Shown here: positions 2,836-57,868 of the stretch, one piece after another
Numbering within the stretch: the first letter of the stretch is position 1
Layout: the number at the start of each line of letters is the position of its first letter
Source: Nocardia fluminea
Lineage (GTDB): Bacteria > Actinomycetota > Actinomycetes > Mycobacteriales > Mycobacteriaceae
Direction: 5' to 3'
Assembly (NCBI RefSeq): GCF_002846365.1
Contig: NZ_PJMW01000003.1
Location: 62,001 to 126,000, forward strand
DNA length: 64,000 bases
The notes under the pieces: model-generated
Databases searched by the model: none
What the model saw: the letters and a program-made list of their open reading frames with translations, nothing else
What the model was told of the DNA's origin: nothing
Translations under genes and position numbers: made by a program

Positions 2836-3680
2836 GCCTCAGGTTGGGCGCTGGTGTACAGCAATCCCCATGCCGGTCACGGGCAACCAGCTCCCATCGC
2901 CGGTGTTTCTACGAATTTTCTACGATTTTCAGACGGGTTTGCACAGGAGATTCTGGGAAGCGATGAATAGCTTCGGGCTGCTAGATAGTCATCTACCTGC
3001 GAAAACAGGGAAATCATGGGAAGAGTCGGGCGCGGCTGGGAATCTGCGGAAACGCCGTGCCGACTTCATGACCGACAAAGCCTATATCACCGTTGACCTG
3101 GTCATCTTCGGGGTCCACCCCTGCTTTCTACGATTTTTCTACGATTTACCCACGATCCACAACACGAGTGGCGGTGAAATATTCCCCGATTCCGGCTGTC
3201 CGGTGGTCTACGACCAGGCCCAGAGCAGGCACGGAGTCACCTCGCCGGAACCGCCGTCGCATCTCGGTCTGCCTCATCCGAACCATCACATCCGGGACCA
3301 TCTGCCGCCTTCACGCTCAAGCAACAACGGTTGGGCTCCTACTCGATTCACGATCACTGCCGGATCGAATTCGGCTACCTCGTTCCACTGCATCGCACCG
3401 GGTCGACGACCAACGACTTATCCGGACGGCTGACTCCCCTCGCCGCGCTGCGCGATGGTCAGGCTGGATCCCACCTGGGTGCCCACTGGACCAACCAAAT
3501 CCCGCTACAGCGGCTGCCAGGCCGTGATTCTCCACGTCAGTCCACCCCAACGGCACCGTAGCGATCGATGTTCGGAAATCGACTCTCTAACATCCGACGC
3601 ACCGGCCGCCGGTCGACTTCCGGCCACCCGCTCACGTCGGATTGCCACTAGGAATGCGGCACGGCGCGCCCACGATATAT
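2836..3680. other. 845 bases without a convincing gene
   Basis: Longer open frames here lack family-like sequence, show no good start context and overlap one another, so none is called. The stretch holds the degraded upstream part of the transposase relic, a pair of TTTCTACGATTT-type repeats (2906-3147) and an ATCTACCTGCG match to the element's intergenic motif at 2991-3001. It looks like decayed mobile DNA. Confidence 0.5.
2906..3147. repeat. two copies of a double TTTCTACGATTT motif
   Basis: At 2906-2930 and again at 3125-3147 the sequence carries two adjacent copies of TTTCTACGA followed by T-rich bases. The copies lie about 220 bases apart in the same orientation inside the gene-less stretch. 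They could be remnants of duplicated mobile-element DNA or old protein-binding sites. Function unknown. Confidence 0.5.
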
Positions 3681-9384: not shown

Positions 9385-10398
9385 ATGAACCGCATCGAAC
9401 AGTTAGCCATACAAATTTCCGAATCGAATCGACTTTTGCGTCAGGGAGGGGTCGCCCGATGGCGAATCAGCTTGATCCTGCTCGATAATACGGCCGAGTT
9501 GTTGATGAAGCAGCAGTGCGACTATCTAGTTCCGAGCGACGATTGGCCGCAGGCGCACCTAAAGTTGGTGCAAAATCAGATCGCCGACGGACATGAATTC
9601 GAGTCGGTGCCCGACTTTCTAGACGATGGAACTCCTCCCCGACGGCTTGCAGAAATCGAGCGGGAACTGCGCAACCAGATAGTGACTCCAGACGAAGCTA
9701 TCAGAATAACTGACGACTTCAATCGAAAAGTAGCTTATCTAATCAAGAACGATATCCTGAGTCAGAGTCATGCCGTGGTACTCAAAAGGCTCCATAAGTA
9801 TCGGAATGAAGCTCATCACGAAGGCCGAGTCCGCGATGCAACTGTCCTTCAGGCAGCGAAAATCTATACTTACGTTGCATGCTCAATGCTGAAAAACTTC
9901 CATTTGCGCGCCTATACGGTGACAATGCCGAAGGATCTCGCAGCCCTGCTTCCAGCAGGCACTCACCCGTCTTCGAGAGTTCCGATCGAAGTCGCCGACA
10001 CTCTGCTGGCGGAATCAATGGTGGGCTCGCCAGAGGCGCTTGCCGCGACTTTGTCCGAACATCTACAATGGAGACTCGACGAGTTGATCGGCGGTATAGA
10101 CTATCTCACATCAGGCATGCCTTTCCCCACCAGTGCGGCAATACAAGAAGAAACTCTGCGGTCGGTTCAAGAAAACCCCTGGACAACTCCCCCGAAGAAA
10201 GTTAGAACTTTACGAGATATAAACCGATGGCGAGCGACAGCCACAACAATCGCAAGAGCGACCGATTACATAAAGGCGTTCGAAAGGTTCGCGCTGCTTG
10301 AGATAGCTATCGAGCCACTCGAAGAGATGATCGCTACCGCAGTCGCCGCATTGGACGATTACATCGAGCAAGAAATCGACCGGCGCCGCGGCGTCTGA
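9385..10398 (+). CDS. low-GC gene with HEPN-like Rx4H motif (337 aa)
   Basis: The protein is almost entirely helical and its gene is clearly lower in GC than its flanks. Residues 137-150 read HKYRNEAHHEGRVR, giving Arg140-x4-His145, the RNase signature of HEPN domains, within a long helix following NRKVAYLIKNDIL. The N-terminal helix LLLDNTAELLMK-like segment and the RNEAHH helix together resemble HEPN-type four-helix bundles. HEPN proteins act as RNases in toxin-antitoxin and defence systems, but no minimal nucleotidyltransferase antitoxin lies next to it. HEPN assignment is by motif only. Confidence 0.6.
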   Translation: MNRIEQLAIQISESNRLLRQGGVARWRISLILLDNTAELLMKQQCDYLVPSDDWPQAHLKLVQNQIADGHEFESVPDFLDDGTPPRRLAEIERELRNQIVTPDEAIRITDDFNRKVAYLIKNDILSQSHAVVLKRLHKYRNEAHHEGRVRDATVLQAAKIYTYVACSMLKNFHLRAYTVTMPKDLAALLPAGTHPSSRVPIEVADTLLAESMVGSPEALAATLSEHLQWRLDELIGGIDYLTSGMPFPTSAAIQEETLRSVQENPWTTPPKKVRTLRDINRWRATATTIARATDYIKAFERFALLEIAIEPLEEMIATAVAALDDYIEQEIDRRRGV

Positions 10399-10532
10399 GA
10401 CCAAAAATGGGAGTTGCCCACGCCCGTTGTCGGCGACCAGCACGAAGGCGACCAGACCACCCTTTCTGAACAGAGTGCACTTTCACGCGCAGGGTCCTGA
10501 AGCTGCGCCAGCGCGGTGAAACGTGCTCGCGT

Positions 10533-24600: not shown

Positions 24601-27564
24601 TCAGGCCGGGCGATGTTGAGCTTCACTCCCCTCTTCACCAGCAGCGTGGACTGCCTCCGTGCCATGCCCGAGGATGGTCCCAGGACCGTCCGGGGCACCG
24701 GTTCCGGTCAGCGCGGGCGCCGGCTCCGTCGCGTCGATGTAGATGTCGGTGTCGAGTTCGGCGGTCCCAGCGGCGAGTTCGCCGGGGTCAGTGGTGATGA
24801 GCGCGTTCTCGGTGTGCGAGGCCAGAGACCCGAAGACCGCGCGGTCGGTGCCGCCGACCGCCAACAGCCCCGAACCGCGTGAGGCCGAGAGCAGGAACTG
24901 CTGCTCGCCGTCGGAGAGGTGGAACGCGGTAGCGACCTCGTCGATGGCTTGGGGTGCCTGGCGCAACAGGATCTGCGTCGCCGCGTTGGACACGATCGCG
25001 CGCCCCAGCTCGGTCGAGCACACATCCGCGCAGTCCTGTGTAGCGACGGTCAACCCCGCCCAATGCTTGCGGAAGCTCTTCGCTGCCCGGAACAAGAACT
25101 GGGCCCCGGCGGGCTGGCGCATGAGCAACCACGCCTCGTCCACAGTGATCATCCGGGGCCGCCGCTGTCCCGGATTCGACACCCGCCGCCACGTCGCATC
25201 CAACACCAGCAGCGTGCCAATGGTTTTCAGCTCCTCGGGCAGCTCCCGCAGCGAGAACACGATCAGCCCACCCTCGGGCTCGGTCGTGGTCGGCCCGTCG
25301 ATCAGCCCCGCGTAGGCACCTTCACCGACGTAGGGGTGCAGCCCGGCGGCCAGCTCGGTCGCGGCGGTCGAGCCGAGCCGGTCGAGTTGGTCGCGTAACC
25401 CGCTCAGCGTGGGCGCGGGCCGGGTCCAGGTGGCGGGGTCGTCGGTGACCCCGGCGGCGGCGTAGGTGGTGGCCAGGGCGGCGTCCAGCGCCGACCGTTG
25501 CGCGGCGGTCTGATCCCTCAGTAGCACCTGGATCAGGGTGTGCAGGAAGAGTTTCCGTCGTGTGAGCGCGTCGGTTGGAGCGCTGCGGCGACCGTCAGCT
25601 TGGGTGTGGACTTCCAGATCGAACGGGTTGAGCCGTACGCCCGGTGCGCCGAGACGGATGTTGGCACCACCCACGGACTCACACAAGCGACGGTATTCGT
25701 CCTCGGGATCGATCACGACCTGCTCGATCCCGCGATACAACGCCCGCAGGATCTCGGTCTTGACCAGGTAGGACTTGCCCGCACCCGAGCGGCCCAGCAC
25801 GACGAGGTTGTGGTTGTGGGCCTCGGGCCCGAACCGGTCCACGAACAACAGCCCCGACGCGGCGTCTCGTCCGTAGAGAACACCTTGCGGGCGAGCGGCC
25901 TGGGCGGGATCGGCGGCGGGCAGCTGCGGTGAGTCGAATGGGAATGCCGCGGCGAGGGCGGTGGTGTCGAAAGTCCGCTGCACCCCGATCAGATCGAGCC
26001 CGAGCGGCAAGGTGGTCGCCCAGGCTTGGGCAGCGCGATAGGACAGGGTGCAGGTGTCCACGAGCAGGCTCGCGGCCAGGGCGCGGACGGCGGCGACCTC
26101 GTCGGCCAGTTCGGTTTCGGATTCGGCGTGCACGGTGAGATACACCCCGACCCGGAAAAGGCGCGCTTCGGCGCGGGCGACCCGCGCGGACAGATCGGCG
26201 GCGTCCTCGACCGCGACATCGATCTGCGGGTCGGTCAGGCGGCCCCGCCCGAGGTCCTGCATCCGCGAGGACTCGAGGCGTGCCTGCTGGCGACGCAACC
26301 GGGTGGCGGCGGTTGCCGGGTCGACAGGCTCGATGTGCACCGCGACCTCGACCCGACCGGGGTGTGAGAGCAGGGGCGCGAGCCAGCCAGCGGTCACCTC
26401 GCGCGGGTAGCCGGTGACCGCCAGCGTCGCGGTCCAATCGGACCCGATTTCGAGATGCCGGGTGCCGATCGTGAGGGATTCCGGGGCGAACCGTTCGAGG
26501 CCCTCACTGGCAAACGGGTCCGGTACATGGCTGTCGGGGTCGGTGGTGATGACCGTGTCGGCGGCGGCGATGTCGGCGGCAGCCGACACAAGCCCTTCGG
26601 GATTGGTGCAGCTGATCAGGACGGCGGCAGCTGCGGCGGTGTCGAGGGCGGTGACCGAGATACCCAGTGGGGAAAGGACATCCGCGGCCTCGCTCATCCG
26701 ACGCAGCAGCCGGGACTCCGCCGCTCGGCGCGCGCCAGTCGACAACGCCCGCCGTGCCCGGCTGCGGCCGGGCAGGCGGGCGCGCAACCCGGTGGCGGCC
26801 AGGGTCTCGGTGTGTTCGCGCCAGATCAGCAGCACCTGTCGGTGGGTCGGGTCCTCCCGAGCGGTCAATTCGGCGAGGTGGTCGGCGTGGTCGAGCGCGG
26901 CGGCGGCCAGGTCGGGTGACATCTGCTCGGCGGCGGCGTGCAGGCCGGCGATGTGCTCGGTCAGGTCCAGCCGCGCCGAGCGGACCAGGATCTGCACGGG
27001 CTGGCGCAGGGTGTGCAGCCAGCCCGCGAGCTGACCGACGAGGCTGTCCTGTTCGGCCGGGGTCCGCAGACTCAGGTTGAGGGTTCCGGCGACGGCGATG
27101 ACAGCGAGGCCATCGGCGCCGAGGTCGATCACCCCGACACCGCCACCCGCGCCACCACTGGCACTCACCGACTCCGGTAGCCGTGCCGCTCGCGCGGTCA
27201 ACCCGGCCACCTCCGGCGAGCGCGACTGGGTCCTGGTGGCGCGGCGGGTGATCCACCTCGGGAACCGCTGCACACCGGTCCTGACGAGGTGGCGCGGCCG
27301 GAGCCGGTGGCCGATGGCGGCCACGAGCAGCAGATCGGCGGAGAGGCCGTCGCGGCGGGTGAGGACCGCGACCGCGATAACGACGAACACCGGGGCCGCG
27401 ACGGCGGCGAACACCGCTGGGGGGATCAAGGTTCTGGTTGCGGCCCAGGCCGAGTACAGCAGTAGGGCGATGGTGGCGAGAACGGCGAGCTGGCGGGCAG
27501 TGAACGGCCCCAACAGCCGGTCGGAGCGGTCGACGTCGGCGGGGATACGCACGATGGTGCTCAT
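24601..27564 (-). CDS. PrgI-VirB4 fusion, conjugation ATPase
   Basis: The 987-aa protein starts STIVRIPADVDRSDRLLGPF with two membrane helices (about 24-68), as in PrgI, and then a VirB4/TraE body with a Walker A VVLGRSGAGKSYLVK (about 588-600) and a Walker B RMITVDEAWLLMRQ (about 803-813), followed by a FRKHWAGLTVATQD segment. VirB4 ATPases energise type IV secretion at the inner face of the membrane. The ATG overlaps the stop of the VirB6-like gene as ATGA. The frame stays open far upstream through that gene, but only as an antisense-like high-GC shadow. Confidence 0.9.
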   Translation of the reverse strand: MSTIVRIPADVDRSDRLLGPFTARQLAVLATIALLLYSAWAATRTLIPPAVFAAVAAPVFVVIAVAVLTRRDGLSADLLLVAAIGHRLRPRHLVRTGVQRFPRWITRRATRTQSRSPEVAGLTARAARLPESVSASGGAGGGVGVIDLGADGLAVIAVAGTLNLSLRTPAEQDSLVGQLAGWLHTLRQPVQILVRSARLDLTEHIAGLHAAAEQMSPDLAAAALDHADHLAELTAREDPTHRQVLLIWREHTETLAATGLRARLPGRSRARRALSTGARRAAESRLLRRMSEAADVLSPLGISVTALDTAAAAAVLISCTNPEGLVSAAADIAAADTVITTDPDSHVPDPFASEGLERFAPESLTIGTRHLEIGSDWTATLAVTGYPREVTAGWLAPLLSHPGRVEVAVHIEPVDPATAATRLRRQQARLESSRMQDLGRGRLTDPQIDVAVEDAADLSARVARAEARLFRVGVYLTVHAESETELADEVAAVRALAASLLVDTCTLSYRAAQAWATTLPLGLDLIGVQRTFDTTALAAAFPFDSPQLPAADPAQAARPQGVLYGRDAASGLLFVDRFGPEAHNHNLVVLGRSGAGKSYLVKTEILRALYRGIEQVVIDPEDEYRRLCESVGGANIRLGAPGVRLNPFDLEVHTQADGRRSAPTDALTRRKLFLHTLIQVLLRDQTAAQRSALDAALATTYAAAGVTDDPATWTRPAPTLSGLRDQLDRLGSTAATELAAGLHPYVGEGAYAGLIDGPTTTEPEGGLIVFSLRELPEELKTIGTLLVLDATWRRVSNPGQRRPRMITVDEAWLLMRQPAGAQFLFRAAKSFRKHWAGLTVATQDCADVCSTELGRAIVSNAATQILLRQAPQAIDEVATAFHLSDGEQQFLLSASRGSGLLAVGGTDRAVFGSLASHTENALITTDPGELAAGTAELDTDIYIDATEPAPALTGTGAPDGPGTILGHGTEAVHAAGEEGSEAQHRPA

Positions 27565-29444
27565 CGCAGGGTGCCTCCTCTCGGAGCGCGTGATGCGCGG
27601 CGGCGCACGGGCAGGTCGGGCATGGGTAGATGCAGTTGCCGCCCCGCCGGACGCGCCGGTGCGGGTGCGGGTGGCTGTGGTGGGTTCTGTGGCGGTGGAA
27701 CGGGTTTGACCCGGGTCACCGGGAACGGCAGCGGGTACTGCCCGCTGCGGGTCGGCCGAAGACGGGCGTAAGGGTCGGCCGGGGCGGGCTCGGTGAAATC
27801 GAAGGCGAGCTGTTGAGGTGTCGCGCGGCGGCCGGGACGCTTGGGTGGTGGCGGGACCGGTGGTGTCGTGCGGACCCGGCGGACCGGGATCGGGAGCGGG
27901 TACTGGCCCCCGGCCCCGGCTCGGATGCCCCGGTACGGGTCCGGTGTGGTGAAGTCGAACGCGAGCTGGCGTCCCCTCGGTGTCCGGGCAGGGCGCGGCG
28001 GCGGGGTGCCCGTGGCCTCGGCGGGTGTCGGGCCGAGTTGGCGGGGGACGCGGCGCACCCCTTCCAGGGGCAGCATCAGCTGCCCGTCTCGCGTCGCGCG
28101 GACCCGTGCGAACGGATCGGAAGGCCCCGCAGGCGTTCGAGGCGCTCGCGGGGCGCGAGCGGCTCGCGGGGTTCGCGGGGTTCGCGGTCCAGAGGCTGCC
28201 GAGGCGGCGGTCCGGGTGCTGCTCGACGTGGTCCCTTTGAGCAGGCCGAGGGTCTTGTAGGCGATGAATCCCCGCACGATCGACCCGGCGAACGAACGAC
28301 CTTGCCCGATCTTGAGCACGGACAGCAGCCAGAACGGGGTCTTGATCAACACGAACATCAGCGCCAACGCGACGATCATGTTCACGATCTCGTTCGCGTC
28401 CGGGCCGAACAGATACCACCCGCCCGGGCCGAGCAGTACCCGCAGCACGATCACCAAGATCATCGACTGCACGACCTGGATCCCCAAGCACGCGGCGAAC
28501 GAGCGCCACCACCACCGCGCTACGCCGTCGATGCCGGGCAGTGCGTGGCACATCAACGCCAGGGGTGCGGCCACGATCAGCAAGATCGTGATGGTGACTC
28601 GCACGATGTAGCTGATGAGCAGTACGAGCAGCATCACCACGAACGCGAGATAGAGCATCAGCGCGAAACCTTGGCTCTGCAGCCCGTTGGTCGCGAGCTC
28701 GGTCAGCGCGGCAGCGGCAGAGCTGGAGTCGACGCCGTCTCCGGCCACTGCGGCGGCGAGGGCGTTGGCGAAGCTGATCGCCGCCGTGGCGATCGCCATG
28801 CTCAGTCCCCCGGCCACGAACCCGACGACCAGGCGGGGAGCGAGTTCGCGGATCGACCATTGGGTTTGCAGGGTCTCGCGTGCCATCAGCAGCACCCCGG
28901 CCGCCATCACGACGAGCACGTAGAGGGCGGTGACGATCTGCCAGGACTGGTTCCACAGCACACCGATCTGTGGGATCTCGCTGGGTTCGGGTGTGGTGAG
29001 CAGAGTTTCTGACAGCAGCTCGAGAAGCGGGTTGAGCGCGGACTCGACGATGCGCCGGAAGAACCCGTCGATCGCGTTCTCCACGCACCCGTTGATGTTG
29101 GTGACCCCACACTCGGCCGACCCCGACCCCGACCCCGACCCGGGAGTCGGGGTTGTCGTGCCCGGTGTTGTAGGGGCGGGTGTGGCCGGGCTCAAGGTAG
29201 TGGAAGGCGGAGTCACCCAGCGGCTCGGCGGAGTGGTCGTAGTCGGTGGGGTGGTCGTCGGGGCGGGTGTGGCCGGTGTCGGGGTGACCGGCACGGTCGG
29301 TGTCGCGGGCTGGGCTGCGGCACCGGCTGCGCCGATGAAGACGATCAGCAGCGCGGCGAGCACCGCCGCTGCGCCGGTGGCAGCGGTGCGTGTGGTCGGT
29401 GACGACCGGGCGGGTGCGGGTGGGGCCTGGGCCGAGGTGGTCAC
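27561..29444 (-). CDS. VirB6/TrbL-like polytopic membrane protein
   Basis: The 627-aa protein starts at a GTG two bases after the pilin-like stop. It has a signal-like helix, a Pro/Thr-rich exposed stretch, then at least six membrane segments (about 165-400), with IRVTITILLIVAAPLALMCH-like and GIDGVARWWWRSFAACLGIQ segments typical of Gram-positive VirB6/TrbL proteins. The tail is Pro/Arg-rich with repeated phrases GQYPLPIPVRRV, GQYPLPFPVTRV and two copies of QLAFDFT. It would form the membrane channel of the transfer apparatus; the repeats may bind a partner such as VirB4. Confidence 0.8.
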   Translation of the reverse strand: MTTSAQAPPAPARSSPTTRTAATGAAAVLAALLIVFIGAAGAAAQPATPTVPVTPTPATPAPTTTPPTTTTPPSRWVTPPSTTLSPATPAPTTPGTTTPTPGSGSGSGSAECGVTNINGCVENAIDGFFRRIVESALNPLLELLSETLLTTPEPSEIPQIGVLWNQSWQIVTALYVLVVMAAGVLLMARETLQTQWSIRELAPRLVVGFVAGGLSMAIATAAISFANALAAAVAGDGVDSSSAAAALTELATNGLQSQGFALMLYLAFVVMLLVLLISYIVRVTITILLIVAAPLALMCHALPGIDGVARWWWRSFAACLGIQVVQSMILVIVLRVLLGPGGWYLFGPDANEIVNMIVALALMFVLIKTPFWLLSVLKIGQGRSFAGSIVRGFIAYKTLGLLKGTTSSSTRTAASAASGPRTPRTPRAARAPRAPRTPAGPSDPFARVRATRDGQLMLPLEGVRRVPRQLGPTPAEATGTPPPRPARTPRGRQLAFDFTTPDPYRGIRAGAGGQYPLPIPVRRVRTTPPVPPPPKRPGRRATPQQLAFDFTEPAPADPYARLRPTRSGQYPLPFPVTRVKPVPPPQNPPQPPAPAPARPAGRQLHLPMPDLPVRRRASRAPRGGTLR

Positions 29445-29446
29445 GG

Positions 29447-29851
29447 TCAGGCTCCGACGATGGACTTGAGCACGGCGACTATGACCGGTGCCAGCATCGC
29501 CAGCGCGTAACCCAGGCACGCGGCACGGAACGCGGTCTTGGCCTTCTCGATCTCGGAAGGATCGCCGCCGCCGAGCAGATATCGTGCCCCGGCAATGGTC
29601 AAGAACAGGGTCGCGAGCCCCGCGAGGATCCCCATGATCCAGTTGCGTGCGTTGTCGATGACCTCCCCCAGCGACGAGGCGATCGCCAGGATTTCGGTGT
29701 GCGGTGGTGTGGCTGAGGCCGATCCGACGAGCAGCACCAGCAGCGCCACGGTCGTGCCCGCGACCGCGAGCGCTCGAGTCCAGCGCCGCTGATGGCGAGC
29801 CGATGCCGATGCCTCTGGCGCCACTCTGAGATTTGTCCGGTCGGTGCTCAT
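29447..29851 (-). CDS. pilin-like (VirB2-type) membrane protein
   Basis: The 134-aa protein has a basic start, a hydrophobic signal-like helix (ALAVAGTTVALLVLLVG), a short loop and two further helices (WIMGILAGLATLFLTIAGAR and a C-terminal YALAMLAPVIVAVLKSIV) joined by GGGDPSEIEKAKTAFRAACL. That order and the GGGDPxEIEKAK loop are usual in VirB2/pilin-like proteins of Gram-positive conjugation systems. Its ATG overlaps the stop of the HTH gene as ATGA. Confidence 0.75.
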   Translation of the reverse strand: MSTDRTNLRVAPEASASARHQRRWTRALAVAGTTVALLVLLVGSASATPPHTEILAIASSLGEVIDNARNWIMGILAGLATLFLTIAGARYLLGGGDPSEIEKAKTAFRAACLGYALAMLAPVIVAVLKSIVGA

Positions 29852-30774
29852 GCCGCCACCTGCCCGTCCTCGGTGCTCGACTGCGCCGAGACCACCGAGT
29901 GCGGGTTCGGACGGCAACCTCGCCGCGGTAACCGTGAGGTCGACGCGAGGGCGGTGACCGCCTCGGCTTCGACCGTGCTGGTGCGCTCGGGGTCGAGGTC
30001 GCGGGCGCGCTCGGACAGCCACGCCAGCAGAGCGCGTTCGGCGCGGGGTCGCTGCTTGCGCAGCTTGCTCAGCGACACGCCACGCTCGGCCGCCAGCGAA
30101 GTCAAGGAGCGGCCTTCCCACCGCGACGCTGCGATGAGTTCGGCGGCGGCGGCGGAGATCACTCCGGCGGCCACGGCGTGGGCCAGGATCGTCTCGGGAT
30201 GGCCCGGTTGCGACACCATCGCCTGCACCCGCTCGCCCAACGGGGCCAGGTCGCGGTCGAGGTCCCCGACCACCGTTGCGGCGGTTCGCTGTTGGGTTGC
30301 CGCTTTGAGGACGGCGCGGTAGGCCCCCCACCGCAGCCGATGCCACACCCCCGGGGCTTCCAGGCCCACACGTGGCAGGTGGCCCAGGAACGCGGTCAGC
30401 ACTTCGGACTCGATGTCGTGGCGGGCGGTGGTGCTCGATGTCGCGTACTCGTTGGCAGTCCGGGACAGCATCGGCGCGGCCAGTCCCGCGCAGCCCAGCA
30501 TCGCGCCCTTGTCGTTGGCGCGGACTCGTTCGAGCAGCCAGACCCAGATCGCGTCGACCTCGGCCATCGGGGTCGCCCGATCCCACAGCCGCTCGCGCAG
30601 CTGCCCCCACGTCCGCACCGGACCGGCGGGGCCGGTCCCCGGTGTGGGCACCGGGCGCGGGTCCGTGGGCAGCGCCTGCTCGGCGACCCTCTCGAAACCG
30701 GAGCGCACCACGGCCAGCGGCGAGCCCGATTTTTCGAGTTGTCCCGCATATTTCGCAGGGCGTGTATTCGTCAC
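29848..30774 (-). CDS. HTH (sigma-region-4-like) protein at head of the transfer operon
   Basis: The 308-aa protein starts at a GTG 7 bases after AAGGAG; an upstream GTG at 30813 lacks such a site. The middle is helical (PMAEVDAIWVWLLERVRAND), and the C-terminus has AAAAELIAASRWEGRSLTSL and AAERGVSLSKLRKQRPRAER, an HTH of sigma-4/Trp-repressor type. It is the first gene of the leftward transfer operon and faces the iteron arrays (first unit 57 bases upstream), so it is the leading candidate for the protein that binds them. That is inference. Confidence 0.65.
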   Translation of the reverse strand: MTNTRPAKYAGQLEKSGSPLAVVRSGFERVAEQALPTDPRPVPTPGTGPAGPVRTWGQLRERLWDRATPMAEVDAIWVWLLERVRANDKGAMLGCAGLAAPMLSRTANEYATSSTTARHDIESEVLTAFLGHLPRVGLEAPGVWHRLRWGAYRAVLKAATQQRTAATVVGDLDRDLAPLGERVQAMVSQPGHPETILAHAVAAGVISAAAAELIAASRWEGRSLTSLAAERGVSLSKLRKQRPRAERALLAWLSERARDLDPERTSTVEAEAVTALASTSRLPRRGCRPNPHSVVSAQSSTEDGQVAA

Positions 30775-30830: not shown

Positions 30831-30907
30831 CTATCCCGGATCTATCCGAAATCTATCCCGACCCTATCCAAAACCTATCCGGAACATATCCGAGTCATAT
30901 CCTGGGC
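30831..30907 (+). repeat. left iteron array: seven 11-bp TATCC repeats
   Basis: Seven consecutive 11-base units begin (C/A)TATCC, at 30831, 30842, 30853, 30864, 30875, 30886 and 30897. Spacing is exactly one helical turn with no slip, and units differ in their last five bases. The array lies 57-133 bases before the start of the leftward transfer operon. Such phasing suits cooperative binding of one protein along one face of the DNA. Confidence 0.9.
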
Positions 30908-30997
30908 AAGCTGGCGAACATTTCGCTATCACTTCGACCGAGTCCTGACCACCCACTCATACCCGGATTGATATGCCAATCTACCTGCGGAGGTGAA

Positions 30998-31052
30998 TGC
31001 GCGGATAGATCCAGGATATGACTCGGATATGTTTCAGATAGATTCGGGATAG
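30998..31052 (-). repeat. right iteron array: five 11-bp repeats, inverted
   Basis: Five 11-base units end in GGATAG or GGATAT (one AGATAG), which is the TATCC motif on the other strand. They occur at 30998, 31009, 31020, 31031 and 31042 with the same exact 11-base phase. The array faces the left one across about 90 bases and lies about 200 bases before the rightward operon. Confidence 0.9.
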
Positions 31053-31249
31053 ACCCCTCACCGGCATCGGCAACCTTCGGAAAAGTTTCTCAAAAAATTT
31101 CGATCGCAACCTCGCGGCGAGTGGTGCCTCCGGTCGCAATTTTTGGGATCATGAAATTCTCAGAAAATAGTTTTGAAAGTCGTGTCCCGATTTCGGCTTT
31201 TTGGCGGAAGTAAGCGAGTACACACCGCTCTCTCGCTCAGGAGGCCGTC
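31053..31249. promoter_or_regulatory. AT-rich leader between iterons and rightward operon
   Basis: Bases 31078-31200 contain runs of A and T (for example CTCAAAAAATTTCG) in otherwise GC-rich DNA. This could hold the promoter of the rightward operon or an easily melted region of an origin. AGGAGG at 31239-31244 is the ribosome-binding site of the next gene. Confidence 0.45.
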
Positions 31250-31897
31250 TTGTCCGCCAGTTCCCGCCGTCCTCGTTCCACCTCCGCCGCCGTGCGGGTC
31301 CCCTCGACCCTATGGGCGCTCGGGCCCGAACCGCTCGATCCCGACGACCGCTGGCCAGACCCAGTCCTGTCCCACGCGATCACTGAGTTCTCCGAACCAG
31401 CCTCACAAGTAATGCTGCTGGGCTGGCCCACCCCCGCCGCCCGAGGCGCGCTGCGAATCATCGAGCCCGACACCGCCGCCGCGCTGGCCGCGATCGGTGA
31501 TCTGGACCGCCACGGCCTCGATGCCCCCACCGACCGGAGCTGGTCCGGGGAGCAGGTGGATCTGGTTATCGCGAGCCTGCTGACCGAGCACGTCGACCCG
31601 AACGCCGCCGCCGACCATGTCACCTCGCTCGCGACCGAAGTGCTGACGATGGGCGGTTTGCTGGTCGTTCTCTCCCGCTGCCGACACAGCGACTCCGGGG
31701 TCCTGCTGGACCCTGCCGGTTCGGTCGTCGCCGCCGCCCAAGCCGCCGATCTGCTCTACCTCCAGCACATCATCGCCGCCCCGATCAGCGGCACCACCAT
31801 CACCGCCGCACCCGCCGAACCGGGCTCGTCTGCCGTCGCACGCCACAACGTCGCGCACACCGATGTCTTCGTGTTCCTCCAGCCCGCCCATGGCTGA
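31250..31897 (+). CDS. hypothetical protein upstream of the methyltransferase (215 aa)
   Basis: AGGAGG lies 5 bases before a TTG start. The product reads like an alpha/beta protein: SQVMLLGWPTPAARGALRII, EVLTMGGLLVVLSRCRHSDS and ADLLYLQHIIAAP. The segment VLTMGGLLVVLSRC resembles the strand-helix end of SAM-methyltransferase folds, and the next gene is a methyltransferase, so it could be a partner subunit or a decayed duplicate; no SAM motif is present. It begins the rightward transfer operon. Confidence 0.65.
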   Translation: MSASSRRPRSTSAAVRVPSTLWALGPEPLDPDDRWPDPVLSHAITEFSEPASQVMLLGWPTPAARGALRIIEPDTAAALAAIGDLDRHGLDAPTDRSWSGEQVDLVIASLLTEHVDPNAAADHVTSLATEVLTMGGLLVVLSRCRHSDSGVLLDPAGSVVAAAQAADLLYLQHIIAAPISGTTITAAPAEPGSSAVARHNVAHTDVFVFLQPAHG

Positions 31898-31943: not shown

Positions 31944-32960
31944 ATGACTCTCGACGCCAACGCCACCCACACCCCCGACCTCGACTCCGCGACCGCCGTA
32001 CAGAACGACCTGGCCGCCCTGCCGGTGTCAGTGTGGGCGACCGCTCAGAACGCCCCCGCCGCGCAACGACGGGGCCGCTATCACCCCGACAGCACCGCGC
32101 ACCCGGCCAAGATGTTCCCCGCGATCGTCCAACACGCGGTCGAGACCTACACCCGCCCCGGCGACCTCGTGCTGGACCCGATGTGCGGGATCGGTACCAC
32201 CCTCGTCGAGTCCCTGCACCTGGGCCGCCGCGCGGTCGGCGTCGAATACGAGGCACGGTGGGCCGAGCTGGCCCGCACCAACATCGAGCTCGCACGCGAG
32301 ACCGGGATCGATCTCGACGCCAAGGTCTACACCGGCGACGCTCGCAAACTGCCCGACCTCATCCCCGCCGAATTGCGGGGCCAGGCGAGTCTGGTCATCA
32401 CCTCCCCGCCCTACGGCGACTCCCTGCACGGCCACGTCCGCGCCAACGGCGCTGACCCGGTACGCAAGACCAACCACCGCTACGGGGCAGTGCTCGACCG
32501 AGGCAACCTCGCCAACGTCGGCCTGGGCCGCCTGCTCTCAGGGTTCACCAAGATCCTCGCCGGGGCCGCCGAATACCTCGCCCCCGGCGGACATGTCGTG
32601 ATCACCGCGCGGCCATGGCGGCAGCACGCCGAACTGGTACCGCTGCCCGGCCACCTCTACACCTGTGGCGAGCTGGCCGGGCTCGTCCCGGTGGAGCGAT
32701 GTGTAGCACTGCTGGGCCGCCTCACCGAGGGCGAACTCGTCGCCCGGTCGAGCTTCTTCCAACGCGACTTCGTCGTCAAACAGCGCGCCGCCGGGCTGCC
32801 GATGCACCTCATCGCCCACGAGGACGTCGTGATTTTGCGCAAGCCTGAAGCCTCCAGCGCCGCGTCCGAGCGCCGCCGCGCGAGCGGAGGTTTCCCTTTC
32901 GGTACCTCCGCGTCGCTGCCGACTCTCGATACGACTGGCCCGGGTTCGGTGGCCGCGTGA
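31944..32960 (+). CDS. TRM11-like DNA/RNA methyltransferase
   Basis: The 338-aa protein has SAM motif I LDPMCGIGTTLVE (about 76-88) followed by a GRRAVGVEYEARW strand and catalytic motif IV TSPPYGDS (about 153-160), the pattern of TRM11/N6-N4 methylases, here preceded by GRYHPDSTAHPAKMFP. GAAGGA supports the ATG at 31944; an ATG at 31890 is also possible. Encoded in the transfer operon before the coupling protein, it may modify element DNA against host restriction, though an RNA substrate cannot be excluded. Confidence 0.8.
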   Translation: MTLDANATHTPDLDSATAVQNDLAALPVSVWATAQNAPAAQRRGRYHPDSTAHPAKMFPAIVQHAVETYTRPGDLVLDPMCGIGTTLVESLHLGRRAVGVEYEARWAELARTNIELARETGIDLDAKVYTGDARKLPDLIPAELRGQASLVITSPPYGDSLHGHVRANGADPVRKTNHRYGAVLDRGNLANVGLGRLLSGFTKILAGAAEYLAPGGHVVITARPWRQHAELVPLPGHLYTCGELAGLVPVERCVALLGRLTEGELVARSSFFQRDFVVKQRAAGLPMHLIAHEDVVILRKPEASSAASERRRASGGFPFGTSASLPTLDTTGPGSVAA

Positions 32961-35440
32961 ATCCCGAACAGGGGTGGCTGGGCCGGGCGCTTCTCGCGCC
33001 CGGCACGACCCTGCGGGATGTCACCGAGACGGTCGAGCAGGCCCTCGGATCGGTGTCCGGGCTGGGCGTGGTCGCCGCCGTGCTCGGAGTGCTCGCCGCG
33101 GTGCGGTCTCTGGCCGAGTGGCGTCGGCGCCGGCTGAGTGCGCGTGCTCGCCAGATCACCGTGCTCACCCCACCCGAGGTCGACGCCAAAGGCGCACTCG
33201 CCTTCTGGGCCCACCTGATCGGGCAACTCCGCCCCGCCTGGGCACGAGTCCTGTGGGGGCAGCCGCATCTCGGGTTCGAGTACACCGTCACTCCCGAGGA
33301 GGGGGCCGCGATCCGGCTCTGGGTGCCCGGCGCGATCCCACCCGGACTCATCGAACGCGCCATCGCCTCGGCGTGGCCCGGCGCGCACACCGACACCCTC
33401 ACCCCCGCCCGGCCGCCGCTACCGGCCGCGGCCGAAGGTGTCCGGCGGATCGTGGCCGGAGGCGAACTGAGGCTCGGGCGCCGCGAGGGTTTGCCGTTGA
33501 GTACCGATCACTCAGGTGATCTCGTGCGTGACCTGATCACCGCCGCCGACGATCTCGGCCCTGGCCAGGCCGCCTGTGTGCAGATCCTCGCCCGCCCGGT
33601 CACCGGCCGCAGAGTCGCGCGAGCTACCCGTGCCGCGGCGAGCACCGGTGCCTCGGCAGGCGTCGTGGTCGGGTTGCTGCGCGAGGCGCTGAATCTGCTC
33701 ACCCTCGGCACGACCACCGCCCGGCCGACCCGGGCCGGACGTGTCAGCGAGGGCAGGGGCAGCGACCGGCAATCGGTGATGGAGTACAGCGCCGCCGCCC
33801 GCGCGGCGGCAGCGAAAGCACGTGGCGCGCACTGGGAAACCGTGGTCCGCTACGCCACCTCGATCCCAGTCTCCGACAACCCTGACGACGCCAACCCGAT
33901 CGCGCAGGCGCGGGCGGTGGCACGCGGGCGGGCAGACGCCCTGGCCACGGTGTTCGGGGCGTGCACCGACCACAACTATTACCGGCGGCGTCGTCGCCTG
34001 CGCCTGGGGTGGTTGATCCGGCAGCGGCGGCTCGGACGCGGGGACGTGCTGTCGGTACCGGAGCTGGCCACGATCGCGCACCTGCCCACCGACACCGGCC
34101 TACCTGGTCTGCAACGGGCCGGAGCCCGCGCCTTGTCCCCGGCCCCGGAGATCCCTGTCGGCGGCGAGCACACGAAACCCCTCGGGATGGCCGACACCGG
34201 GACTCGCCGCCCGGTCGCAGTCAAGATCTCCGACGCCCGACACCATCTCCACATCCTCGGCCCGACCGGTGTCGGCAAGTCCACCCTGCTCGCGCGCACG
34301 ATCCTCGATGACGCCGACGCCGAACGCGGGGTGATCGTCATCGACCCCAAAGGCGACCTCGTCACCGACGTGTTGTCCCGGCTGCCTTCCCGCATGGCCG
34401 ATCGAGTGGTCCTGTTCGATGCCGACTCCTCCGCCCCGCCGCCGTGTGTGAACCCCCTCGATATCGACCGGATCGGGCGCGCGGGAATGGATCTCGCCGT
34501 CGACAACCTCGTCACCGTGTTCCACCGGATCTTCCACCAATGGTGGGGCCCGCGCACCGACGACATCATGCGCGCGAGCCTGCTCACCCTCTGCGCACAA
34601 CCAGGCACCGCCACCCTCGCTGACCTACCACGGCTGCTCACTGAGCCCGCCTTCCGCGCCCGGGTCACCCGCACCACCAAAGACCCCGTCCTGCGCGGGT
34701 TCTGGGACAGCTACGAGACCCTCTCCGACACCAGCCGCGCCCAGCTCACCGGCCCCTTGCTGAACAAACTGCGAGCGTTCCTGTTGAGGCCGTTCGTGCG
34801 TTCGGCCATCGCGGGCGGGCCCAGCACCGTCGAGTTCGCCGACATCCTCGACAACGGCGGCATCTGCCTGGCCCGCCTGCCGAAAGGTTCCCTCGGAGAG
34901 GAAACCTCACGCCTGGTCGGGTCACTGCTTGTAGCCCGCACCTGGCAGGCGGTAACCGCGCGGGCCCGAGTGCCCGCCGCCGACCGGCCTGATGCCGCGC
35001 TGGTTCTGGATGAAGCCCAGAACTTCCTCAACCTCTCGACCCCGATCGAGGACATGCTCGCCGAAGCCCGAGGACTGCGCCTCTCTCTGCTGCTCGCGCA
35101 CCAGAACCTCGGCCAGCTCTCCCGGGAGCTGCGTGACGGCATCTCGGCCAATGCCCGCAACAAGATCGTCTTCGCCGTCAGTCCCGATGACGCCCGCGAC
35201 CTCGCGCGTCACACCCACCCGTGGTTGTCCGAGCACGACCTGTCGCACCTGGACGCCTTCCACGCCGCCGCCCGCCTGCTGGTCGACGGCCGCAACGCCC
35301 GACCCTTCACCCTCACCACCCGGCCCCTGGACCCGCCGATCCCCGGGCGCGCCCGTGAGATCGCTGCCGCTGCCCGCGCCCGCCTCACCGCCTCAACTCC
35401 GCACGCCCCTAACCCCTGCCACGCCCGAGAAAGGCTCTAG
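32957..35440 (+). CDS. VirD4/TraG-like coupling protein ATPase
   Basis: The 827-aa protein has an N-terminal membrane-like helix (LGVVAAVLGVLAAV, about 36-50), a long middle part, Walker A HILGPTGVGKSTLLAR (about 432-446), GVIVIDPKGDLVTDVL and Walker B ALVLDEAQNFLN (about 680-692), then LLLAHQNLGQLS. This is a coupling-type ATPase that delivers DNA to the type IV channel. Its GTG overlaps the methyltransferase stop as GTGA. The C-terminal GAR/NARPFTLTTRP part is usual in actinobacterial homologues. Confidence 0.85.
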   Translation: MNPEQGWLGRALLAPGTTLRDVTETVEQALGSVSGLGVVAAVLGVLAAVRSLAEWRRRRLSARARQITVLTPPEVDAKGALAFWAHLIGQLRPAWARVLWGQPHLGFEYTVTPEEGAAIRLWVPGAIPPGLIERAIASAWPGAHTDTLTPARPPLPAAAEGVRRIVAGGELRLGRREGLPLSTDHSGDLVRDLITAADDLGPGQAACVQILARPVTGRRVARATRAAASTGASAGVVVGLLREALNLLTLGTTTARPTRAGRVSEGRGSDRQSVMEYSAAARAAAAKARGAHWETVVRYATSIPVSDNPDDANPIAQARAVARGRADALATVFGACTDHNYYRRRRRLRLGWLIRQRRLGRGDVLSVPELATIAHLPTDTGLPGLQRAGARALSPAPEIPVGGEHTKPLGMADTGTRRPVAVKISDARHHLHILGPTGVGKSTLLARTILDDADAERGVIVIDPKGDLVTDVLSRLPSRMADRVVLFDADSSAPPPCVNPLDIDRIGRAGMDLAVDNLVTVFHRIFHQWWGPRTDDIMRASLLTLCAQPGTATLADLPRLLTEPAFRARVTRTTKDPVLRGFWDSYETLSDTSRAQLTGPLLNKLRAFLLRPFVRSAIAGGPSTVEFADILDNGGICLARLPKGSLGEETSRLVGSLLVARTWQAVTARARVPAADRPDAALVLDEAQNFLNLSTPIEDMLAEARGLRLSLLLAHQNLGQLSRELRDGISANARNKIVFAVSPDDARDLARHTHPWLSEHDLSHLDAFHAAARLLVDGRNARPFTLTTRPLDPPIPGRAREIAAAARARLTASTPHAPNPCHARERL

Positions 35441-49673: not shown

Positions 49674-50398
49674 TGCAACTCCTGGAAAATCAGTTCCGAA
49701 TTCGTGCGCCTTTTCGGCACAGGTGCGGCGGGGCCGCCATTCGGATTTCTGCGAATTCCCCGGCGAATTCCGGGAACGGTTCGACGCTAGCTCGACCTCG
49801 AACAGGCTCGCAACCCCAAAAGTGCGCGAATTTCCCGGAATTTTTCCGGACAACGGCGAGCCTCACAGCGCAAATACAGATATGCAACGCGCACAGCAAT
49901 ACTCAAACGCGACGACCAGTGGCCGACGAAATGAACGGGAAGGGATAGAAAGATAAAAGAAGAATGAGAAGGGGGAGCAAGAAGACGGATAGGGAACGCA
50001 GACGACAGGAGATAAATAGAGACCAGAGATGAGCGAATACGGACCGGCGACGCATGTCTATATAGCTTTGTATATAGACAATCCTGGATGCTATCCGCGC
50101 GGATATACACCCGTCTACCTGCGGATACGACCGCAACGGGTGGGGCCATTTGAGCGCCCCACGTATTTCCGCACGTATTTCTCCACGTATTTCCCCACGT
50201 ATCGACCGAAATGCATCGCAGCATATTTTCGCGGGGTGAATTTCGGAAGTTTCCGAAGCGATTCGACGTGACAGATTCCGGAGGACGCTGCCCGTCGAAC
50301 CGATTCTCAGAGCGCCGATTGCGGGTGAATAGCCCAGCAGATCCGGCCGTTTCCGGCAATAGCCTACCTCCTGTTTCCGCATTTCAGACCTACATTAG
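49674..50398. promoter_or_regulatory. 725-base intergenic region with operator-like repeats
   Basis: This AT-rich region separates two leftward operons. It contains the 9-bp inverted repeat GTCTATATA/TATATAGAC (50056-50064, 50071-50079), the perfect palindrome TATCCGCGCGGATA (50092-50105), a GGATA at 50123 two 11-base turns from that at 50101, and four 12-base ACGTATTTCC-type repeats. It also has TCTACCTGCGG (50114-50124), which occurs in the 30.9-kb iteron region. Confidence 0.65.
50161..50208 (-). repeat. four 12-bp ACGTATTTCC repeats
   Basis: Units begin at 50161, 50173, 50185 and 50197: ACGTATTTCCGC, ACGTATTTCTCC, ACGTATTTCCCC and ACGTATCGACCG. They sit about 190 bases before the MoxR-like side's neighbour and 190 bases downstream of the ParA-SARP gene's end, so they are not in a coding frame. 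They look like binding sites. Confidence 0.75.
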
Positions 50399-52222
50399 TC
50401 ACCGATTGCCGTCCGACCGATCCGGGTTCGAACCGGAACGGATTCGGCCTTCTCCTCGGCGGAGGCGTTCGAGGAGTTCTCGGGTTTCTCGACTCGGGGT
50501 TTCGCCGATCTCGGCGAGTTTGCGGGTCATGAGTGTGTAGGTGCGGGCGAGGGCGGCGTATTCGCCCAGGCGTGCGTGCTGGCGTAAGAGATCGCGCCAG
50601 ACGGTCTCGTTGTAGGGGTCGGTCTCGGCGGTCATCTCGAGCAGTCCAAGGGTTGTGCGCGGGTCGTGGTCGGCGTCGTGGGTGGCCAGCCAGTTCAGCG
50701 CGTTGTGGGCGTCACGGCGGGCTGATTCGCGTAGCGGTTCGACCCAGGAGCCGGTGATGTCGGTGGCCAGGTCGCTGGTGGCGAGGGCGGTGATGGCCCG
50801 GCACGCGGCACTGTGGTCGGTGTCGCTGCTGGCGCGGCGGCGCGCGTCGACCGCGGCGAGGTAGTCCCAGTAGTCGGCACTCGCCGCGGTGGCCGACAGG
50901 CGGCAGTGCAGCCGGTCATCGGTGAGCATTCCGGTGATCTGCCCGCCGGTGGCGGTCGTGATCGAGGCACGCAGCCGCGCGAGGGCGTTGCTGAAGGCGG
51001 CCGAACGCTCGTGTGATTGCCCGCCCCAGATCAGATCGATCAGCCGAGATCGGCTCAGCCCATCCGGATGCAGCGCCAGCAGGGCGACTATCTCGCGGCT
51101 GCGCGGCTGGAAGTAGCTCGTGATGTCGGTCTGCTCGCCGGTGGACGGTGCCCGCCAGAAGATCCTCGTTGCCCCGAAGACGAACACCGCGAGGGCGGGC
51201 GAGTCGAACTCTGGCGCAGCGCTGGCCGGTCGGGGCTCCGGCGGAGCGCTGGCCGGGGTGGACTCCGGCACCACTGCGAGGTCGTCGGCGTCCGGGTGGC
51301 CGGCATCCTCGGCCTCGCTGGCGAGGACAGATATCGGAGCTGGTGGCCGTTCGCTGAGTACCTCAGGTTCCGCGATCACGGGCTCCGGCGCAGGCGGTGG
51401 CGGCGGTAGGTCGATGCTGTAGATCGTCGGTCCGGCGTCGGCACGGCGGTGCGGGCGTTCCTGGCGGGCAGCGCGTGGCGCGGACCGGGTTCGGCGGGTG
51501 GCCGCACGCAACTGCAGTTCCACGGCGTTGGTGATGAGCCGAGCAGGCGGGAGCAACTGCGAGGACCGCCGGACGCGGCGAGGAGTCAGGAGCGAGCGGG
51601 CACCGCCGTGGGTCGCGGGCAGAGTACCTACAACCGGGACACCGAGGGCGATGGCGTAGTCGCGGCTGCCGCCGACGAGAACGATGCCCCGAGGGCAGTC
51701 GGGGCGGGTGAGGGCACGGATCCGCGTGAGGGCGGGCTCGGGGTCGATGTGCTCGGCGCGCAGGACGAACAAGCAGGCGTCGGCGGCGGCGATGATCGGG
51801 TGCGGGTCCGAGTCCGGCTCGGGCACACCGCAGTCGGCGAGCACACTCGCCCCGAGACCCCGCCAGTCCGAGTCTGGATCGGTGAGCAGTTCTGCGGCCG
51901 GGACAGCGCGCACAGGGTCATGCTCCGGTGGCGCGGCCAGCAGCGCCTCTCCGCCGGGCAGGAACTGCACGTGCTGCGCCAATAGATCCGGGGTGATGAG
52001 CTGGCCGGAGTTGGTTCGGCGGGCCAGGCTCGCCAGCCCGAGATACGGGTCCGCGCCGACCATGTCGGCGAGCTGCCCGCCTGCGGGGTCGGCTTCCACG
52101 ATCAGGGCGGTCTCCGGGCCGGGCCAGGTGTGGGCGAGGGCGACGGTGGTTGTGGTGGTTCCGGCGCGAGGGCTCAGTCCGACGACCGCGATCAGTAATG
52201 GCGCCTGCGAGCCCGTCCTCAT
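50399..52222 (-). CDS. ParA-like P-loop domain fused to SARP/BTAD regulator
   Basis: The 607-aa protein starts with a deviant Walker A of ParA/MinD type in VVGLSPRAGTTTTTVALAH (about 13-31) and ALIVEADPAGGQL. A Pro-rich linker follows, then about 340-600 with FGATRIFWRAPSTGEQTDIT, SRSRLIDLIWGGQSHERSAA and ALARTYTLMTRKLAEIGETP, which match the wHTH and BTAD parts of SARP regulators. Combined ParA-SARP architecture is unusual and suggests a regulator that reads a nucleotide-bound state. It ends the envelope operon, 8 bases after the VirB8-like gene. Confidence 0.75.
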   Translation of the reverse strand: MRTGSQAPLLIAVVGLSPRAGTTTTTVALAHTWPGPETALIVEADPAGGQLADMVGADPYLGLASLARRTNSGQLITPDLLAQHVQFLPGGEALLAAPPEHDPVRAVPAAELLTDPDSDWRGLGASVLADCGVPEPDSDPHPIIAAADACLFVLRAEHIDPEPALTRIRALTRPDCPRGIVLVGGSRDYAIALGVPVVGTLPATHGGARSLLTPRRVRRSSQLLPPARLITNAVELQLRAATRRTRSAPRAARQERPHRRADAGPTIYSIDLPPPPPAPEPVIAEPEVLSERPPAPISVLASEAEDAGHPDADDLAVVPESTPASAPPEPRPASAAPEFDSPALAVFVFGATRIFWRAPSTGEQTDITSYFQPRSREIVALLALHPDGLSRSRLIDLIWGGQSHERSAAFSNALARLRASITTATGGQITGMLTDDRLHCRLSATAASADYWDYLAAVDARRRASSDTDHSAACRAITALATSDLATDITGSWVEPLRESARRDAHNALNWLATHDADHDPRTTLGLLEMTAETDPYNETVWRDLLRQHARLGEYAALARTYTLMTRKLAEIGETPSRETRELLERLRRGEGRIRSGSNPDRSDGNR

Positions 52223-57025: not shown

Positions 57026-57868
57026 ATGAACCGGAGGAACCCACCGACCAACGACCCGCGGCGAGGCCGAGGCCACGACCTCGAACCCGAGCTACCTGAT
57101 CTGGGCCGATGGGTCCGCAGGGTCCGCGAGGCCCGCGGGCTCTCCCGGCCCGAGGCGGCCGGCCTGCTCACCATCAGCTACGAGCTGCTGCGCAAGATCG
57201 AGTACGGCACGACGCCGTGCACCCTGCCGGTGCTCGAGCAGATGATCACTACCTACGAACTGGGTCCGGCGCAAGCCCGTCACACCCGCGACCTGGCCCG
57301 GCCGTCTGTCTCGCTGACCCCGGTCGAGGAGCTGCGCACCCATCACAGCGCTCGCGAGCGTCTCACAAAACTGAGCGAGCTCGACGAGCGCGGACTCGTC
57401 GGCGCCTACATCGACCCCTTGTGGTCGTTGGTCCACGCCAACAAACGATTTCGCGCCGAACTGCCCGGCATCGACCGCTACGACGACAACGCCGCCTTGT
57501 GGTTCTTCCACCCCGGCACCACCACACACACCGCCGAAACCCTTGTCGTGCACTGGGAAGCCGCCGCCGCCTACCTCGTCGCGTCCCTGCGCGCCGCGCT
57601 CGGTACTCACCGCCACAACCCACAAGCACGGTCCCTGTTCCAGAAGCTCTGCGGCTCACACACTTTCACCGAATTGTGGAACACCAGACTCGAGGTTGCC
57701 TACGGCTACCCGACCGACGAACCCCTCGAACTCCGCGAGCCCGACACCGGGCACCTGTACTCCGTCAGGATCCATCTCGGTGCCAGAGTTCGTACACACC
57801 TCGATACCCCTGAGCTGCGATTCTTCATCGGCTACCGCGACCCCCGCGACCACTCGACCCAGTCCTGA
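57026..57868 (+). CDS. XRE regulator with MmyB-like ligand domain (first copy)
   Basis: The 280-aa protein has an HTH (WVRRVREARGLSRPEAAGLL, TISYELLRKIEYG) and a MmyB-like C-terminal domain with ERGLVGAYIDPLWSLVHANK, ALWFFHPGTTTHTAETLVVH and HWEAAAAYLVASLRAALG. MmyB-like domains bind a small hydrophobic ligand such as a fatty acid or antibiotic. The ATG follows TAGGAGGGGC. It may control the envelope operon divergent from it. A 35-aa gene and a second MmyB-like regulator follow. Confidence 0.85.
   Translation: MNRRNPPTNDPRRGRGHDLEPELPDLGRWVRRVREARGLSRPEAAGLLTISYELLRKIEYGTTPCTLPVLEQMITTYELGPAQARHTRDLARPSVSLTPVEELRTHHSARERLTKLSELDERGLVGAYIDPLWSLVHANKRFRAELPGIDRYDDNAALWFFHPGTTTHTAETLVVHWEAAAAYLVASLRAALGTHRHNPQARSLFQKLCGSHTFTELWNTRLEVAYGYPTDEPLELREPDTGHLYSVRIHLGARVRTHLDTPELRFFIGYRDPRDHSTQS

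Follow-up and report, generated by a model that had tools for sequence, protein, structure and literature searches.

The two facing arrays of 11-bp repeats described here are best explained as the operator region of a mobile element's transfer switch, bound by the element's ParA-SARP protein and activating its leftward T4SS operon, a reading to which a probability of roughly three in four may be assigned. It is based on the arrays themselves, their phasing, the change of their core from lineage to lineage, the SARP fold of the protein, a covariation involving two of its residues and the promoter spacing; from these we infer both binding by ParA-SARP and activation. The arrays would thus be a SARP-type operator/promoter in a novel setting, larger than the SARP sites described in PMC10972967 and paired with a protein of novel domain order.

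The window, i.e. the whole 64-kb stretch analysed (C3:62001-126000 of an 8.06-Mb genome), contains a rightward-reading array of seven units on the plus strand (30831-30907; in order CTATCCCGGAT, CTATCCGAAAT, CTATCCCGACC, CTATCCAAAAC, CTATCCGGAAC, ATATCCGAGTC and ATATCCTGGGC, the last being nearest the centre) and a leftward-reading array of five units on the minus strand (in order from 31052 to 30998: CTATCCCGAAT, CTATCTGAAAC, ATATCCGAGTC, ATATCCTGGAT and CTATCCGCGCA), with ATATCCGAGTC common to both. The initial annotation had described seven and five facing units with an exact 11-bp period, about 90 bases apart; direct reading bears this out, the intervening stretch being exactly 90 bases (30908-30997), and the pattern is absent from shuffled sequence, with three in-phase TATCC giving six matches in the window versus none in 100 dinucleotide shuffles. 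The accompanying description of all twelve units as (C/A)TATCC holds for eleven, the remaining one, in the leftward-reading array, being CTATCT. An exact 21-bp inverted repeat has one arm in each array (30885-30905 on the plus strand, 31011-31031 on the minus strand), and a scan of the 64-kb window revealed no TATCY pairs 11 bp apart elsewhere. A four-unit pattern, searched for in 150 genomes of the genus, has 26 matches in 12 of them, and its reversed control has none.

As had been proposed, the arrays are located between divergent transfer operons, with T4SS genes flanking them on both sides. The leftward operon, on the minus strand, begins with the gene for an all-helical protein (29848-30774; below, the neighbour protein), and includes those for a T4SS pilin (PF18895; 29447-29851), a TrbL-like membrane protein (PF19597, TrbL_4; 27561-29519 as the open frame was scanned, the true start probably lying further left) and a PrgI domain fused to a VirB4-type ATPase (24601-27564). 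The rightward operon, on the plus strand, begins with a gene giving no family match (31250-31897), with a DNA methylase (PF01555; 31947-32960, in a frame scanned from 31863), a TraG/TraD-like coupling ATPase (32957-35440) and a Replic_Relax protein that is a candidate relaxase (PF13814; 35446-36447); the ParA-SARP and MmyB genes are found further to the right. A tyrosine-type integrase gene (PF00589; 22686-23966, minus strand) is present to the left of the transfer genes, and, when the Replic_Relax protein is taken as the relaxase, the ICE-with-T4SS set of integrase, relaxase, coupling protein and VirB4 is complete. No tRNA genes were found in the window. Two further elements of the same genome, on C1 and at C2:3.74 Mb, keep most of the same genes, C3:1-40000 holds a portion of yet another, and the neighbour protein has a fourth copy, encoded at C2:5962020; the genome has four copies of ParA-SARP. 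The C3:1-40000 element has an MmyB that is 94% identical to that of the window and a ParA-SARP that is only 60% identical, which points to exchange among the elements. The 17 named loci retrieved via the neighbour protein are all from Nocardia, as are the named ParA-SARP relatives among the matches listed. In the 150 genomes, the neighbour protein (E<=1e-3) and ParA-SARP (E<=1e-20) occur together in 43, the former only in 2, the latter only in 4 and neither in 101.

Comparison with relatives is informative as to what is conserved in the arrays. The 150 genomes yielded 40 control regions paired with a ParA-SARP, including one from the window's own genome, and three further own-genome pairs (window, C1 and C2:3.74 Mb) were added. 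The resulting 43 pairs, out of 68 neighbour-protein places, are those to which a ParA-SARP partner could be assigned; in 29 pairs array and gene are on one contig, and in 14 they are on two, matched by exclusion or identity. With lags of 4-40 tried, and the window included, the strongest lag is 11 in 34 of the 43 control regions and 11, 22 or 33 in 40, so that the period is conserved in homologous elements, a check that the initial annotation had put forward. The phasing survives despite change in the core, which reads TATCC in the clade of the window and elsewhere CACCC, CATCC, CCCCC, CCTCC, CCACC, TACACG or others, in agreement with the earlier suggestion of selection on one protein face; change of the core by lineage points to a single co-evolving binding protein. 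The 38 loci that could be anchored on a GGTAG-like motif (picked by eye among motif matches, some with variant letters; L083, L099, L101, L111 and L115 are without an anchor) have units that hold register to this motif, the core being one base off in L093 and L119. Across three units, the core columns, five in number, are identical in 61-79% of these 38 loci, and the remaining six columns in 8-24%. The plus-type array has five to nine units per locus, five being the floor of the method, and the other array two to five. Because the plus-type array was located here through its similarity to the other array, the within-locus likeness of the two rests on a separate comparison in which each was picked independently; it is weak in some cases, e.g. 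L097, L105 and L119. Arrays of the TAT type are impure, 10 of 15 loci having one or more C-type units among five in the plus array; the window has none among its five.

The proposed binding protein, ParA-SARP, is encoded about 19 kb from the arrays (50399-52222, minus strand), and comprises a ParA-like region (residues 6-246), a disordered linker, a winged helix (344-442) and a BTAD region (450-596). BTAD (PF03704) is present in all 49 members of the family, and Trans_reg_C (PF00486) in 46 of them at E<=0.01; the domain scan of the window's own protein gives BTAD only, its winged helix being assigned by fold and profile. The best PDB profile match is AfsR (E 7.9e-6), PDB searches with the single sequence having given nothing useful, and the best matches of the structure model are AfsR and EmbR. 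As judged from sequence and model, ParA-SARP is a SARP protein, in that an OmpR-type winged helix is predicted to be followed by a BTAD. Its SARP domain is C-terminal and its ParA-like domain N-terminal, unlike the small, medium, large and SARP-LAL classes, in which the SARP domain is N-terminal according to PMC10972967; an N-terminal SARP domain is, however, the layout of the known classes rather than a criterion of fold. The N-terminal half shares the fold of the ParA/MinD/FleN-type ATPases and differs from them in being fused to a SARP and in the Walker-A stretch (residues 15-27), where none of 43 aligned rows, two of them misaligned, has a lysine; it may be, therefore, that the ParA-like domain does not hydrolyse ATP.

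SARP sites consist of direct repeats spaced by 11 or 22 bp, with the last repeat 8 bp from the -10 element (PMC10936776). The leftward array would fit this arrangement: its repeats are direct and 11 bp apart, as in a SARP operator, and a repeat-like sixth unit, TTCACC (30992-30997, minus strand), is 8 bp from TAGATT (30978-30983, minus strand), which is the predicted -10 of the leftward promoter and part of the recurring GGTAG motif. The unit beside this motif is TACACA or TTCACA in 19 of the 38 loci, with variants elsewhere, whatever the core. The units had earlier been measured against known iterons of 18-22 bp; this was the wrong yardstick, the precedent that matches being SARP sites with their direct repeats of 11 bp (PMC10936776).

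In the mechanism that we propose, several copies of ParA-SARP would line up along the array, each on its own 11-bp unit, i.e. one per helical turn, with an AfsR-type recognition helix (residues 404-425, including 411 and 419; codons at 50948-51013, minus strand) reading the core. On the minus strand the last protomer of the row would sit on the repeat-like TTCACC unit, at 8 bp from TAGATT, and the row would recruit RNA polymerase, as AfsR does at afsS, leading to transcription of the leftward T4SS operon; the plus-strand array may serve the rightward operon, either similarly or repressively. The likeness to the AfsR-afsS system of Streptomyces extends to the 11-bp direct repeats, the winged helix with BTAD and the 8 bp to the -10, here a predicted one (PMC10936776). 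By contrast, the SARP sites described in PMC10972967 have two or three repeats, rather than two facing arrays of many units, and SARP targets elsewhere are antibiotic clusters, rather than, as predicted here, conjugation genes. The SARP-LAL protein PimR is similar in that its sites have repeats with 4-bp spacers, to which at least two monomers bind cooperatively, and dissimilar in that there are three repeats and a secondary pair, and in that it is not a ParA-SARP (PMC5930380).

The role of the plus array is less clearly defined, in that no -10-like hexamer was found at SARP distance from it. An alternative, which is possible though not the more probable account, is that only the leftward array is an activator site, the plus array being a repressive or loop-forming site within the 5' leader of the leftward transcript, and kept in helical phase with the other array by ParA-SARP. 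In addition to the missing -10, the geometry of the loci argues for this: in 36 of the 38 loci the two inner core ends are separated by a distance equal to 1, 2 or 3 modulo 11, with steps near 79, 90, 101 and 112, and of the 20 loci with TTCGC the spacing from GGTAG to it is 66-68 in 11 and 55-56 in 6, but 46 in 3. The TTCGC belongs to a GCGAA...TTCGC dyad between the arrays (GCGAACATTTCGC, 30914-30926, assigned to neither strand), this half of which recurs in the centres of 20 of 38 relatives and is absent from 18; the dyad or its half stands at the -10 place of the plus array in part of the relatives. In several relatives the spacing between the dyad and the plus array is fixed. The inter-array phase may reflect looping or joint binding, or else common descent. 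Against such an arrangement, the loci share kinship, the inner array end was set by a score that can add whole units, and no Walker-A lysine aligns in the ParA-like domain, which makes ATP-driven pairing of the arrays doubtful.

The proposal that ParA-SARP binds the arrays draws on residues that vary with the core. Among 476 variable columns in 26 elements, residues 411 and 419 are the only ones to separate the TAT from the C type by disjoint residue sets, core types having been set by the author, with L093 (CATATC) as TAT and L091 and L133 (CCCCC) as C; residue 411 is Ala or Ser with all 16 TAT cores and Thr with all 10 C cores. When L093, L091 and L133 are left out, four columns separate the types, half of these being outside the DNA-binding domain. 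In five label swaps the number of separating columns was 2, 2, 5, 3 and 3, with one column at 404 and none at 408-419; since swaps also yield two to five columns, the evidence is in the place of the columns, not in their number. In a profile alignment, residues 411 and 419 correspond to R87 and K95 in the recognition helix of AfsR, which contact the DNA backbone and not the bases, the base-reading positions being R92 and T88 (PMC10936776). The residue equivalent to R92 (416) is invariant in the 49 aligned proteins, and that equivalent to T88 (412) does not separate the core types. In a tree made without the DNA-binding domain (and without L111, for which the ParA-SARP frame was not picked), the CACCC rows L083, L141 and L018 nest inside the TATCC clade and again carry Thr at 411, the sole column at which these three match all other C rows and no TAT row. 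A Mantel-like test of distance covariation, employing 32 of 38 rows with near-copies removed, gave the recognition helix no advantage (partial r -0.04) and at that level counts against the proposal. The distance of about 19 kb from gene to arrays, the C-terminal place of the SARP domain and the missing -10 of the plus array also weigh against it. The backbone-contact nature of the two residues, and the C-type units in TAT arrays, slightly lower the odds of ParA-SARP and raise those of another binder.

Even so, it is improbable that the binder is either the adjacent neighbour protein or the MmyB-type regulator (57026-57868), both of which the initial annotation had named as candidates together with ParA-SARP. 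The neighbour protein gene adjoins the arrays, and both genes recur in the C1 and C2:3.74 Mb elements, which both have paired facing arrays; however, only ParA-SARP tracks the core. Across 19 rows of the neighbour protein, with types assigned by eye, not one of 239 variable columns distinguishes the core types, and the copies of L027 and L030, which have C cores, are nearer to that of the window (74 and 73%) than is the copy of L010 with its TATCC core (67%). Likewise, the MmyB of a CACCC element is nearer to that of the window (74%) than is that of the C1 TATCC element (62%), and, in the only four copies compared, the MmyB HTH hardly varies. The neighbour protein, named an HTH protein in the initial annotation, has only weak fold matches, of sigma-factor-like kind (best E 3.2e-3, from a model with mean pLDDT 64.5). 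It has no family in Pfam, NCBIfam or PHROGs, and its 17 aligned relatives give chance-like Pfam matches in single members, the best being DUF4630 (0.0079).

The initial annotation had left three roles open, i.e. oriT, replication origin or main switch operator; the last is supported, and for the repeats neither an oriT nor a replication origin has support. That the arrays are all or part of an origin of transfer nicked by the relaxase is very unlikely. They do sit between the relaxase and T4SS operons, inverted repeats are present, and ATATCCTG resembles a MOBP nic motif; but the core changes wholesale among lineages, the ATATCCTG stretch is missing from the CACCC-type loci inspected, and a block at 31182-31234 (plus strand, upstream of the rightward operon) is better conserved, occurring, as an oriT could, in the serine-recombinase elements L009, L183 and L184. 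The block is, as judged by eye, among the best-conserved noncoding stretches in an alignment of 18 loci, and a strict pattern of it has 26 matches in 21 of the 150 genomes, 25 of them, by coordinates, beside a neighbour-protein gene; the 26th is in L184, where no array was found in 20 kb. It is thus a better candidate oriT than are the repeats; since it is upstream of a gene in the cases inspected, a rightward promoter is equally possible. Folded as DNA, 31170-31249 is no stronger than its shuffles. Least probable of all is that the units are replication-origin iterons bound by a Rep protein, for, although iteron origins share rows of direct repeats and a Replic_Relax protein is encoded nearby, such origins have longer units than the short ones here and employ Rep proteins, whereas the present arrays have an exact helical-turn period and a promoter-type register to GGTAG, no iteron-type initiator was recognised in the subset of window proteins scanned, and nothing similar was found among 72,556 plasmid records.

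Arrays also occur apart from the putative activator. In the window's own genome, L009 (C2:2414000-2433999) encodes a serine recombinase and a Replic_Relax protein, and has seven TATCY units at about 10350-10420 reading toward Replic_Relax, with no ParA-SARP, VirB4, TraG or MmyB within 20 kb; by its gene content it appears to be a mobilizable-like element. Opposite this array, at about 10189, is a CACCC-like row, so that the two arrays of L009 differ in core. The element L183 similarly has a serine recombinase, a Replic_Relax protein, five units and two copies of the 31182-31234 block, its array lying at a contig end beyond which nothing can be seen. The activator AcaCD and SGI1, in which the regulator family is unrelated to ParA-SARP, offer a precedent for comparison with L009, which likewise lacks a T4SS and has an array with no activator in 20 kb.

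A broader proposal, which we advance tentatively and consider less probable than its negation, is that genus-wide elements of Nocardia have private ParA-SARPs, each of which would read its own operator 'word' in a facing, phased, many-unit operator, that the words diverge so as to insulate co-resident elements, and that satellites without activator or T4SS copy the word of a helper for its switching. The known role of SARPs is to activate antibiotic clusters (PMC10936776 and PMC10972967). A literature search covering titles and abstract openings, with most subscription papers outside its scope, revealed neither a SARP controlling conjugation nor a ParA-SARP fusion. If a SARP does act as a conjugation switch, the role of the family extends to horizontal transfer, and, if the natural activator/operator pairs do differ in their words, the specificity code of SARPs becomes directly testable.

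Tandem Repeats Finder also located other short repeats in the window, i.e. two short 11-bp tandem repeats of TTTCTACGAWT (2906-2930 and 3125-3147) and a 12-bp tandem repeat, CCCCACGTATTT, present in 3.8 copies between the ParA-SARP and AAA genes (50157-50202).
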